Assembly (NCBI GenBank): GCA_025351795.1
Contig: JANXVG010000093.1
Location: forward strand, 1 to 47,722
Length of the DNA: 47,722 bases
Source of the DNA: Salinibacterium sp.
GTDB taxonomy: Bacteria > Actinomycetota > Actinomycetes > Actinomycetales > Microbacteriaceae
Direction of reading: 5' to 3'
The position numbers and the translations under genes are program-made. Shown piece by piece: positions 24,848 to 45,768 of the stretch (the stretch's first letter is position 1; the number at the start of each line of letters is the position of its first letter). The notes beneath the pieces were generated by a model, which was given only the letters and a program-made list of their open reading frames with translations, did not search any database and was not told the DNA's origin.

Positions 24848-24920
24848 TGGCTCCGACCGGCGTCGATCCGGTGACCTTTCGATTTTCAGTCGAACGCTCT
24901 ACCAACTGAGCTACAGAGCC
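24848..24920 (-). tRNA. tRNA-Phe (GAA)
   Basis: 73-nt cloverleaf on the minus strand. Acceptor GGCTCTG pairs with CGGAGCC (one G-T-type pair), the anticodon loop is CTGAAAA with anticodon GAA, and the T-arm carries the GGATCGAC variant of the T-loop. CCA is not encoded; the bases after the discriminator A read CCT. It is the last tRNA of the Glu-Asp-Phe cluster. Confidence 0.95.
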
Positions 24921-24943
24921 GAAGGGCCGAGGCCCTCCTGCGC

Positions 24944-24971
24944 AAAAGGCCCCTCCATCTGAAGAGGCCTT
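24944..24971 (-). terminator. Hairpin between tRNA-Asp and tRNA-Phe
   Basis: On the minus strand: AAGGCCTCT, an 8-base loop, AGGGGCCTT, with the last Ts continuing into a run of four. The 9-bp stem (one G-T wobble) and T-run suggest partial termination or a processing signal after tRNA-Asp. Confidence 0.45.
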
Positions 24972-24979
24972 ACGCGTTG

Positions 24980-25053
24980 CGACCCTGACCGGACTTGAAC
25001 CGGCGACCTCCGCCGTGACAGGGCGGCGCGCTAACCAACTGCGCTACAGGGCC
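24980..25053 (-). tRNA. tRNA-Asp (GTC)
   Basis: 74-nt cloverleaf on the minus strand. Acceptor GGCCCTG pairs with CAGGGTC including a G-T wobble at position 2-71. The anticodon loop is CTGTCAC with anticodon GTC on a CCGCC/GGCGG stem, the T-loop is TTCAAGT, and the discriminator is G as expected for tRNA-Asp. CCA is not encoded. Confidence 0.96.
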
Positions 25054-25078
25054 TAGCTATTTTTTTCTGTGGTGTGTT

Positions 25079-25154
25079 TGGTGACCCCAACGGGATTCGA
25101 ACCCGTGCTGCCGCCGTGAAAGGGCGGTGTCCTAGGCCACTAAACGATGGGGCC
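25079..25154 (-). tRNA. tRNA-Glu (TTC)
   Basis: 76-nt gene on the minus strand. Acceptor GGCCCCA pairs with TGGGGTC (one wobble), the anticodon loop is CTTTCAC with anticodon TTC, and the T-arm has TTCGAAT. Discriminator A is followed by an encoded CCA (25079-25081), unlike the other two tRNAs of the cluster. It is first in transcription order. Confidence 0.95.
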
Positions 25155-28513: not shown

Positions 28514-29617
28514 ATGCCAACACATCGCCCGAGACTCACGCCCGCTATCGCGGACGTGCGGAGGGCCGTGCGCGTTGCTCTGCCCGTCGTTGCTCGTCGT
28601 CTCATGCCAAATGAAGGAGATACTGCTGCCGATGGCCCTGGTGTCCCGCAATCGTGTGACTCGACTCCACCTTCTCCTTCATTTGGCACAGGCCACTCTC
28701 GACAGACCGAGCAGCCGCTGGTTCTCGTCGCGCTCAGCGGCGGCCCCGACTCCCTCGCGCTCGCCGCCGCCACGGCTTTTGAAGCGCCGCGCGCGGGGGT
28801 GCTGGCAGGTGTGGTGATCGTTGACCACGGTCTTCAGGCCGGGTCGGCGGATGTCGCAGCGCGAGCGGCCACGCAGGCCATCGAGCTCGGCCTCGCCCCC
28901 GTGCTCATCCGCGCGGTCACGGTCGGCTCGGATGGGGGGCCAGAGGCAGCGGCGCGCGCGGCGCGCTACGCGGCGCTCGACGCCGCTGCGGCAGAAACGG
29001 GGGCCACCGCCGTATTGCTCGGCCACACCCTCGACGATCAGGCCGAGACGGTGCTGCTCGGCCTCGCACGCGGCAGTGGCGCGGCGAGTTTGTGGGGCAT
29101 GCAGCAGGCGAGTGGGCTCTACCGCAGACCGCTGCTCGGCATCCGTCGTTCGACCACCGTGGCGTTCTGCACAGAGTCCGGGCTCGATGCATGGCTGGAT
29201 CCGCAGAACATCGAGCACCGATTCACCCGAGTTCGTGTGCGGTCGACCGTGCTCCCTGTGCTCGAAAGCGAGCTCGGCCCCGGGGTCGCCGAGGCTCTCG
29301 CGCGCACAGCAGGGCAGCTGCGAGAAGACGCGGAGGCCCTCGACTACTTCGCCGAGGAGATCGCCGAAGATCTGGCCGAGCACTCGCATGCCGGCATCTC
29401 GTTGCCCGTACTGGCGCTCGCGGCAAACCCCGCAGCCCTGCGCCAACGGCTCATCCGGTGGGCCGTCTGGAACGAGTTTCAGGTATCGCTCAGTCGCACG
29501 CAGACGCTTGAGGTTGCACGGCTCGTGACCGACTGGCGCGGCCAGACGGCCGTCGATCTGCCGGGCGTTAGGGTGGAACGCTTGGGCGCACTGCTCGTCT
29601 TCTCCGCCAGACCCTAA
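28514..29617 (+). CDS. tilS: tRNA(Ile)-lysidine synthase carrying an in-frame repeat insertion
   Basis: 367-residue enzyme that converts C34 of the CAU tRNA-Ile to lysidine using ATP and lysine, essential for AUA decoding. The PP-loop motif [12 protein letters not shown] starts near residue 75, followed by VIVDHGLQ and [21 protein letters not shown]. The N-terminus [17 protein letters not shown] is typical for actinobacterial TilS. Between this helix and the PP-loop, residues 31-58 are encoded by an 84-bp palindrome-ended repeat element (28605-28688) whose second copy is at 43022-43105. The insertion keeps the frame and falls before the ATP-binding core, so the enzyme should remain active. 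An internal ATG at 28604 could in principle serve as a start. hpt follows 7 bases after the stop. Confidence 0.95.
28605..28688 (+). repeat. 84-bp palindrome-ended element, copy 1, inside tilS
   Basis: The 16-bp ends are perfect inverted repeats (TGCCAAATGAAGGAGA and its complement) around a 52-bp centre. The length is exactly 28 codons and adds the peptide PNEG...SPSFG to TilS without disturbing the frame. A same-length copy lies at 43022-43105 in the opposite orientation. With that copy it shares the ends, an 18-bp stretch at one end and a CGAGTSACAC core. Confidence 0.85.
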
Positions 29618-43021: not shown

Positions 43022-43105
43022 TGCCAAATGAAGGAGAAGTTGCGCGCGAGTGACACTCCGACGCGGGTTCCAGCGCATCCGAGAGCTCGGATCCTTCATT
43101 TGGCA
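43022..43105 (-). repeat. 84-bp palindrome-ended element, copy 2, upstream of clpC
   Basis: 14-bp perfect terminal inverted repeats (TGCCAAATGAAGGA and complement); total length identical to the tilS copy. Compared with copy 1 it is inverted. In the frame equivalent to the tilS insertion this copy has no stop and would encode PNEG...SPSFG, like copy 1. It occupies most of the 332-bp gap between the kinase gene and clpC, together with a ClgR-like box; the remaining bases show no gene. Confidence 0.85.
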
Positions 43106-43290: not shown

Positions 43291-45768
43291 ATGTTCGAGA
43301 GATTCACCGACAGAGCTCGCCGCGTTGTCGTCCTGGCCCAGGAAGAGGCCAAGATGCTCAACCACAATTACATCGGCACCGAGCACATCCTGCTCGGCCT
43401 TATTCACGAGGGTGAGGGAGTCGCGGCCAAAGCGCTCGAGTCGCTGAATATCTCGCTGGATGCTGTGCGTGAACAGGTGCAGGACATTATCGGCCAGGGC
43501 CAGCAGCAGCCGACCGGGCACATCCCGTTCACGCCGCGCGCGAAGAAGGTACTTGAGTTGTCTTTGCGCGAAGCGCTGCAACTCGGCCACAACTACATCG
43601 GCACCGAGCACATCCTGCTCGGCCTGATCCGCGAGGGTGAGGGGGTCGCGGCGCAGGTGCTCGTAAAGCTTGGCGCCGACCTGAACCGTGTTCGCCAGCA
43701 GGTTATCCAGTTGCTGTCGGGCTATCAGGGCAAGGAAGCCGTCACCGTCGGCGGTAACGACGCGACGCCAGATAAGGGATCGCAGATCCTCGACCAGTTT
43801 GGCCGTAACCTCACCCAGGCGGCGCGCGACGGCAAGCTCGACCCGGTGATCGGGCGCGAAAAAGAGATGGAGCGGGTCATGCAGATCCTCTCCCGTCGCT
43901 CCAAGAACAACCCGGTTCTGATCGGCGAGCCTGGCGTCGGCAAGACCGCCGTCGTCGAGGGACTCGCGCTCGCAATTGTGCGCGGAGACGTACCGGAGAC
44001 ACTCAAAGACAAGCAGCTCTACACACTTGACCTGGGTTCGTTGATCGCAGGATCGCGCTACCGCGGTGACTTCGAGGAGCGTCTGAAGAAGGTCACCAAG
44101 GAGATCCGTTCGCGCGGTGACATCATCACGTTTATTGACGAGATTCACACCTTGGTGGGCGCCGGCGCCGCCGAGGGTGCAATCGACGCCGCGAGCATCC
44201 TGAAGCCGTTGCTGGCGCGAGGTGAACTGCAGACCATCGGTGCCACCACCCTCGATGAGTACCGCAAGCACTTCGAGAAAGACGCAGCGCTTGAGCGTCG
44301 CTTCCAGCCAGTTCACGTGCACGAGCCGTCGCTTCCGCACACGATTAACATCCTCAAGGGTCTGCGCGACCGATACGAGTCATTCCACAAGGTGTCGATC
44401 ACCGACGGTGCGATCGTCGCTGCCGCGAACCTCGCTGACCGCTACGTCGCTGACCGCTTCCTGCCAGACAAGGCCATCGACTTGATCGATGAGGCTGGCG
44501 CGCGCCTGCGCCTTTCGATCTTGTCTGCCCCACCAGAACTGCGTGAGTTCGACGACAAGATCGCCACGGTGCGTGCCCAGAAGGAAGGGGCGATCGAAGA
44601 TCAGGACTTCGAGAAGGCCGCTTCGCTACGGGACGAAGAGAAGAAGCTACTTGGTGAGAGGCTCCGTCTCGAGAAGCAGTGGAAGGCAGGCGATGTATCG
44701 ACAACGGCCGAGGTGGATGAAGGCCTGATCGCCGAGGTCCTCGCTGCGGCAACCGGCATCCCGGTATTCAAGCTCACTGAAGAGGAGTCAAGCCGACTCA
44801 TCTTCATGGAGAAGGCGTTGCACATGCGGGTGATCGGGCAGGAAGAGGCCATCTCGGTGCTCTCGAAGACCATTCGTCGCACGCGTGCTGGCCTCAAAGA
44901 CCCGAAGCGCCCCAGCGGATCGTTCATCTTTGCTGGCCCCACCGGTGTTGGTAAAACCGAGCTCGCGAAGGCGCTCGCCGAATTTCTTTTCGACGACGAG
45001 AACGCCCTCATCGCCCTCGACATGAGCGAGTACGGCGAGAAGCACACGGTCTCCCGACTTTTCGGTGCTCCTCCCGGTTTCGTCGGCTTCGAGGAAGGCG
45101 GGCAACTCACCGAGAAGGTGCGCCGCAAGCCATTCTCCGTGGTGCTCTTCGACGAGATCGAGAAGGCTCACCCCGACATCTTCAACTCATTGCTGCAAAT
45201 TTTGGAAGAGGGGCGACTGACGGACGGCCAAGGCCGCGTCGTTGACTTCAAGAACACCGTGATCATCATGACGACCAACCTCGGTACGAAAGACATCACC
45301 GGTGGGCCGGTCGGCTTCCAGATCGAGGGCGATACGGCCACGAGTTACGACCGCATGCGTGGCAAGGTCGTCGACGAATTGAAGAAGCACTTCAAGCCCG
45401 AGTTTCTGAACCGCGTAGACGAGACCATCGTTTTCCCGCAGCTCACGAAGCCTGAGTTGTTGCAGATCGTGGATCTCTTCATCAAGCGCCTGAGCGAGCG
45501 GATGATGGACCGCGACCTTACCGTGGAACTCACTGTTCCAGCCAAGGAACGCCTCATTGAGATCGGGTTCGACCCGGCTCTCGGTGCACGCCCGCTGCGC
45601 CGTGCGGTGCAGCACGAGATCGAGGATCGACTGAGTGAGAAGATTTTGCACGGCGAGCTCAACGCGGGGGACCACGTTCACGTGGATTTCCTGGATGGCG
45701 AGTTCGTGATCACCACCCGTCGTCAGGCTGGCCTGCCAGACGCGGAACCGATCGCGGTCGAGGCATAG
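43291..45768 (+). CDS. clpC: ATP-dependent Clp protease ATP-binding subunit ClpC
   Basis: 825-residue HSP100 unfoldase that feeds substrates to ClpP1P2. The ATG at 43291 follows AAGGAG with 6-base spacing, so the upstream GTG at 43273 is rejected. Two N-terminal Clp repeats (about 3-70 and 78-145) each carry a [12 protein letters not shown] segment. AAA-1 has Walker A GEPGVGKT near 210 and [12 protein letters not shown], and is followed by the UVR/M-domain [16 protein letters not shown] near 435. AAA-2 has [17 protein letters not shown] near 550 and [16 protein letters not shown]. The C-terminal D2-small domain contains [15 protein letters not shown]. All ATPase motifs are intact. Regulation by ClgR is suggested by the upstream box. 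Confidence 0.97.

Follow-up and report, generated by a model that had tools for sequence, protein, structure and literature searches.

An interrupted palindrome read in frame within tilS of Salinibacterium and its possible partnership with a DUF559-type nuclease

The stretch of DNA analyzed in this study (hereafter the window, 47,722 nucleotides from a Salinibacterium sp. whose assembly comprises 2.5 Mb in 97 contigs) carries, on the plus strand at positions 28514-29617, the gene of a tRNA-Ile lysidine synthetase of 367 residues, which was named tilS on the basis of its PP-loop motif and its alignment with relatives. Residues 31-58 of this protein are encoded by an interrupted palindrome of 84 bp (28605-28688), a member of what we call subfamily A, whose ends form a perfect 16-bp inverted repeat: the left arm, TGCCAAATGAAGGAGA, occupies 28605-28620 on the plus strand, and the right arm, on the minus strand at 28673-28688, is its exact reverse complement; each arm is a putative half-site. 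The reading frame is open across the whole element, which amounts to 28 codons, and it is restored when the element is removed, with CTC ACA GGC read across the junction, just as a preliminary description of this DNA had stated. That description had also supposed that the extra residues form a disordered loop. In the structural model of the window's TilS, the block of residues 31-60 shows a pLDDT of about 46-52 and no secondary structure, and the surroundings of the PP-loop reach 97-98; the linker holding the insert is variable and probably disordered. In addition, a second element of subfamily A, of the same length as had been noted (84 bp, with a perfect 14-bp inverted repeat), is located at 43022-43105, in the divergent intergenic region upstream of a plus-strand gene (43291-45768) that we take, from its sequence, to be clpC. 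This neighbor served as the anchor for reading the same intergenic region in relatives, and a degraded copy of the element could be recognized by eye upstream of clpC in one of them (G007). The element pattern matches the window twice and gave no match in 100 shuffled windows, which rules out chance. Elsewhere in the window, three clustered tRNA genes are found on the minus strand (24848-25154).

A tilS match was obtained in 25 of the 27 genomes of the genus, and 24 of these loci were read, that of G012 being left out; our grouping of the genus takes in Salinibacterium sp. SWN248, and the tilS locus of G006 is identical to the SWN248 record over 3,930 bp. Most relatives possess the same N-terminal helix and PP-loop joined by a short linker that lacks the segment, which agrees with its earlier interpretation as an insertion. 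A palindromic insert occupies the corresponding position in 6 of the 24 genus loci (G000, G007, G008, G022, G003, and G021, the last with one arm mismatch) and, clearly, in 3 of 79 named loci, a count that leaves out L094: the MAG RM56_bin.064, Homoserinibacter gongjuensis, and Homoserinibacter sp. GY 40078. The arms of these inserts vary by species; their reading phase is common to all nine (x-N-x-x-D at the left arm). As two phases are usually open in elements of this family, the single common phase points to one of two possible histories: an old insertion whose arms would have been rewritten later, or repeated insertion under a strong phase constraint. Other repeats were observed in these regions as well. 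In the tilS linker of G003 (L217), tandem PADRNPL-type repeats adjoin an 80-bp palindrome, CGCAACTCATGG, which matches a palindrome located beside a G003 nuclease gene of the type described below. Near tilS in G022 (L214, positions 3166 and 3513) and G021 (L215, position 828), inverted repeats of 22-26 bp, which span 68-76 bp and have arms ending in AGGTCTC, represent another palindrome family.

The further genomic copies that the preliminary description had predicted do exist. With a strict pattern, we identified 8 copies in the window's genome, 21 in G023, 10 in G016, 2 in G007, and 1 in G014, and none in the remaining 22 of the 27 genus genomes; the reversed control pattern produced no matches. 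A wider pattern (arms of the form AAAT-NNN-GGA) found copies in 17 of the 27 genomes, with at most 50 per genome and no control matches. The subfamilies differ by changes common to both arms (AAATGAAGGA, AAATGACGGA, AAAT(G/A)CAGGA, and AAATTCAGGA), and the arm of subfamily B is CCGAAATGACGG. At six loci of G023, the palindromes occur in local pairs 157-475 bp apart with partly duplicated flanks, and one local pair of another subfamily is present in G000 (C47:8184 and 8369). Between two tandem subfamily A copies of G023 (L200, contig C3, from locus position 2136) lies a different palindrome of 92 bp, its arms being GATAACTCCTGCAGA; arms resembling these, AACTCCTGC, flank nuclease genes in G007 (L309), G013 (L321), and G009 (L326).

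Five genes have an element close by on each side. Four of them are homologous and encode proteins of 289-329 residues, and the fifth is an acylphosphatase gene. Among eight proteins scanned against Pfam, five passed the cut-off of DUF559 (PF04480), and matches to MTES_1575 and AbiEi_4 stayed below theirs. NCBIfam returned no match for the four proteins searched, and PADLOC returned weak AbiEi matches for all four (best E 1.3e-5) and weak homing-endonuclease matches for three. A profile built from 20 sequences matched the structures 3hrl (1.3e-9) and 3r3p, a mobile intron protein (2.7e-5); the latter we take to be I-Bth0305I, a Vsr-like enzyme. The residues E, D, E, H, and D are kept in 95-98% of 88 sequences. 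Judged from these sequence matches, the partner is a DUF559, Vsr/EDxHD-like predicted nuclease with a weakly AbiEi-like N-terminus. Its likeness to the AbiE toxin-antitoxin systems consists of this N-terminal similarity, weak in PADLOC and below the Pfam cut-off for AbiEi_4, and it differs from them in its C-terminal nuclease domain and its flanking palindromes. The nuclease query found matches in all 27 genomes of the genus (E 1e-10), in 79 of 120 genomes and 60 of 85 genera of the family (E 1e-15), and in 28 of 296 genomes at class level (E 1e-12).

The palindromes around these genes were compared at 92 nuclease loci, 63 from the genus and 29 from other genera, leaving out 12 partial genus matches and the lower-ranked family matches. 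At 47 of the 92 loci, the palindromes on the two sides of the gene have at least 9 identical arm bases in common; the number rises to 60 with at least 8 bases and to 64 with at least 7, and 28 loci have none. The 32 loci below 8 shared bases were counted against a pairing of palindrome and nuclease. In the 47 matched loci, the median distance from the coding region is 106 bp for the upstream copy and 57 bp for the downstream one. Three controls were used: none of 48 tilS and clpC loci had matched flanking palindromes; mismatched flanks, a set that includes loci of one subfamily, reached at least 9 bases in 11 of 300 cases and at least 8 in 18 of 300; and none of 111 ordinary genes, 600-1300 bp long and drawn from the window and from the named loci, reached 8. 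The link is looser in a wider class-level sample, which also counts against the pairing: 2 of the 12 loci sampled within the family and, in other families, 3 of 16 reach at least 8 shared bases, and one of the latter has a 12-base identical arm with equal spans of 73 bp on both sides. Across 59 loci, arm similarity is correlated with protein similarity (Mantel r 0.559; 0 of 2000 permutations), including pairs below 50% protein identity (r 0.278; 0 of 1000 permutations). The correlation shows that arm and enzyme have been passed on jointly; by itself it cannot separate co-evolution from common descent, because synteny across species and genera is frequent among the nuclease loci. With regard to tilS, the arm of the insert matches a palindrome located next to one of the genome's own nuclease genes in G000, G008, G021, and G003, in the last case on just one side of the gene. 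G007 and G022 keep elements, and none of the nuclease loci read in them (5 and 2, respectively) has arms matching those in tilS, which is a point against the pairing. Nuclease genes with matching palindromes, all outside the window, change the class to which the tilS element belongs.

The arms and the interior of the palindromes behave differently. The 41 strict copies of subfamily A are 79 bp (28 copies), 80 bp (12), or 78 bp (1) long, and the identity of their interiors is 0.34 and 0.30, versus 0.29 when shuffled. Within the six tandem pairs of G023, the 15-base arms differ at 1 of 180 positions and the interiors at 45 of 294, with one gap (Fisher 3e-9). It is important to note that arm conservation is partly built into these figures, because the copies were found by their arms; no interior relics without arms were found in 52 fetched loci. 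Beyond the six local pairs, subfamily A interiors are unrelated, the best value being 0.58 for a G016/G023 pair from a shared nuclease locus, and gapped comparison of interiors at shared sites is uninformative since random pairs already reach 0.71. The absence of related interiors outside local pairs gives no sign of recent spread; dispersal looks old, with the arms kept in place. Covariation between arms could be assessed only at position 5 of the G021 arm and beside the core, because the 12-base core hardly varies within genomes. At that position (G/A), left and right arms agree in 8 of 17 copies, 8.6 being expected if they are independent; in G000, G016, and G023 (11, 11, and 17 copies, with one of each tandem pair dropped), shuffled right arms match the left arms as well as the real ones do. 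Where arms vary in these four genomes, no covariation was found, save in the outer flanks of G016, which exceed the shuffles (25 of 2000; one of nine tests). Fixed arms, drifting interiors, near-constant length, and lack of covariation argue for putative half-sites at a fixed distance and not for a hairpin stem; the arms look like two candidate protein half-sites, as would suit a dimer.

The reference case for short repeats partnered with a single-copy enzyme has so far been that of REPINs and their RAYTs. We favor, with a probability of about 0.58, a two-part system of similar design with an unrelated enzyme, in which a palindromic site of two half-sites is matched by a resident nuclease of the DUF559/EDxHD type. 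The element would be the recognition site, formed by two inverted half-sites of 12-18 bp at a fixed distance (core of 78-81 bp); each nuclease lineage would have its own half-site sequence, and its gene would occupy a constant chromosomal location, framed by a copy of its own palindrome on each side, with further copies scattered in the intergenic DNA of some genomes. A dimer of the nuclease most likely grips both arms, which would constrain the arm sequence and the spacing and leave the interior free. The copies probably spread by repair or copying provoked by the nuclease, as REPINs are thought to rely on RAYTs, and the copy in tilS would be one such site lodged in a tolerated protein linker. 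Binding, dimer formation, cutting, and mobility or spreading are steps that we infer for this system. If the proposal is correct, repeat/enzyme partnerships would have arisen independently with a second, unrelated class of enzymes; DUF559, listed by Pfam as a domain of unknown function, would gain a directly testable DNA partner; the many nuclease/half-site pairs of differing specificity could amount to a recognition code; and the odd in-frame repeat in a tRNA-modification gene would be explained as well. We found no DUF559-associated palindromes in the literature available as open-licence PMC papers, and the pairing looks like an undescribed counterpart of the known repeat-and-enzyme pairs; having no component in common with the closest kind, the system would be of a new kind.

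Two other groups of mobile elements offer partial parallels. At the level of sequence alone, the nuclease domain (3r3p, E 2.7e-5) and the catalytic residues resemble those of EDxHD homing endonucleases. One of these, I-Bth0305I, binds a target of nearly 60 bp as a dimer, according to PMC3943268, and a long DNA target bound by a dimer is what we propose here. The present nuclease differs in being encoded by a free-standing chromosomal gene with a palindrome on each side, in its weakly AbiEi-like N-terminus, and in the many palindromes that remain in the same genome. In TIRtrons, as presented in PMC3733652, RAYT-like genes have long TIRs on both sides, and some of these TIRs make up repeat families, so that in both cases an enzyme gene stands between repeats that are also dispersed; the TIRtron enzymes are tyrosine transposases.

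A more far-reaching possibility, which we regard as doubtful, is that these palindromes and nucleases constitute a separate class of selfish two-part elements in Actinobacteria. A Vsr/EDxHD-like nuclease would use its own dispersed palindromes as landing and boundary sites, and breaks would be repaired from other copies; the nuclease or a cargo (the acylphosphatase, or a TetR/epimerase pair) would be gained and lost as a unit, and the arms at settled sites such as tilS would be rewritten as the nuclease changes specificity. Bracketed units that are present in one species and absent in a relative also speak for the two-part system favored above. In G000, G016, and G023, one nuclease gene has a GDPD gene on one side and, on the other, a uvrD/pcrA-type helicase gene that turns its promoter side toward it; in G021 the nuclease gene lies beside the helicase gene with another left neighbor. 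Helicase loci were read in 11 of the 27 genomes, and six of them have a short gap and no nuclease; four of these gaps contain no inverted repeat of at least 8 bases, and that of G007 contains one of 9 bases. Occupied and empty nuclease sites near the helicase gene are the feature open to comparison with homing endonucleases. The palindrome-acylphosphatase-palindrome unit of G023 (L188) is wholly absent at the corresponding site of G016 (L184), where about 30 bp separate the matched flanks. Likewise, at L469 of G021 (G021:C1:1550100-1556200), TetR-family and epimerase-family genes (about 1.84 kb) lie between two palindromes with similar interiors, and the G022 counterpart has a single palindrome and neither gene. 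These cases, few in number, fit a presumed gain or loss of units between palindromes. The sixth short gap, that of G014 between the GDPD and helicase genes (L363), holds palindromes of another kind, one nested in the other: the outer is GGTTGAGTAG, with a span of 78, and the inner CGTATCGAAACC, with a span of 32. Other species have at this position either the nuclease unit or nothing.

It is rather unlikely, in our opinion, that the palindromes are host regulatory sites, that is, operators kept under selection for a domesticated nuclease-like protein, its nuclease activity secondary or lost, or for another regulator. Such a role would suit the arms kept in place after local duplication, the weak N-terminal matches to AbiEi antitoxin regulators, and the upstream palindrome of the 47 matched loci, whose median distance is one at which an operator could sit. 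It would also suit the ten locus pairs in which two species share an element at one site and the DNA is conserved to its left and right: seven from the first comparison and three from the five G022 loci compared with G021. These ten include L167/L173, whose matched flanks are 0.8-1.3 kb apart, and leave out L184/L188 (G016 empty), L166/L179 (different sites), the shared nuclease loci, and three pairs matched on one side (L181/L199, L183/L197, and L187/L189). However, the 50 copies scored on both sides fall into 14 divergent, 11 convergent, and 25 co-directional regions, which indicates no preference for promoters or terminators; another copy stands downstream of the nuclease gene too, and the catalytic-looking residues of the nuclease have been kept.

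The preliminary description had likened the tilS insert to the Rickettsia palindromic elements, selfish sequences tolerated in genes through being translatable, an account that we consider improbable for this family. The likeness stands for tilS itself, where a palindrome is translated in frame and lengthens a housekeeping protein, in a region of low model confidence, and two of the three phases are usually open in the family (0.81 and 0.77 of 110 strand-copies). It is not borne out for the family as a whole: among the 55 copies read in context (from G000, G007, G009, G014, G016, and G023) and scored with our own codon-usage gene calls, 51 are intergenic, 2 overlap the edge of a predicted ORF, and 2 lie inside genes, both of them tilS and in the same reading phase. 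Nor is the idea of an ORF-compatible family tolerated in genes supported: the core is 78-81 bp long in all 55 copies and a multiple of three in just 4, the tilS site being the exception. The elements described here are also shorter than those of Rickettsia, for which PMC2229807 gives 105-146 bp, and differ from them in having matching nuclease genes.

A function of the palindrome as a transcript hairpin, whether in a structured RNA, a terminator, or an RNase site, is very improbable: the arms can pair (mean fold energy of -36.6 kcal/mol over 55 copies), but the interior adds little folding (z -0.34, s.e.m. 0.17, same copies), the arms show no covariation where they vary, 14 of the 50 scored copies are in divergent regions, and Rfam gave no match at the tilS element. 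Even harder to credit is a true REPIN/RAYT system, in which hairpin-forming REP doublets are moved by a Y1 transposase. Its layout is the same: as described in PMC3116915, REPINs are mostly extragenic repeats with conserved inverted ends, a freer spacer of kept length, tandem copies, and a single-copy enzyme gene adjoining each group, and our palindromes likewise keep their inverted ends and the length of a spacer freer in sequence (41 strict copies), favor extragenic positions, form local tandems, and adjoin their own enzyme gene (the 47 of 92 loci with at least 9 shared bases). In contrast, the enzyme is a DUF559 Vsr/EDxHD-like protein and not a Y1/HUH transposase, with PF01797 in none of the 27 genus genomes and in 5 of 14 control genomes; membership is refuted by this missing RAYT gene. 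Moreover, the arm consensus of the 41 strict copies lacks GTAG, and the compensatory changes that PMC3116915 emphasizes, together with hairpin capacity, were not found here where arms vary, in palindromes whose core hardly varies. The nuclease-palindrome system works like REPIN/RAYT and is not a member of it. Mismatch correction, whereby a Vsr-like nuclease would nick mismatches and keep hairpin arms complementary, is similarly hard to believe: it suits a partner of Vsr type by similarity (3r3p being Vsr-like) and the symmetrical arm changes between subfamilies, but the G/A position of G021 shows the agreement expected of independent arms, and both this mechanism and selection for a hairpin were rejected on the fold energies and the lack of arm covariation.

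A phage origin was also considered and rejected: the pattern scan of viral contigs gave no matches, phage records gave one weak match, and the profile scan of viral contigs gave 32 pattern matches and no relatives. In the case of plasmids, 45 records were obtained, the best of which, a Tsukamurella plasmid, shows 32% identity.
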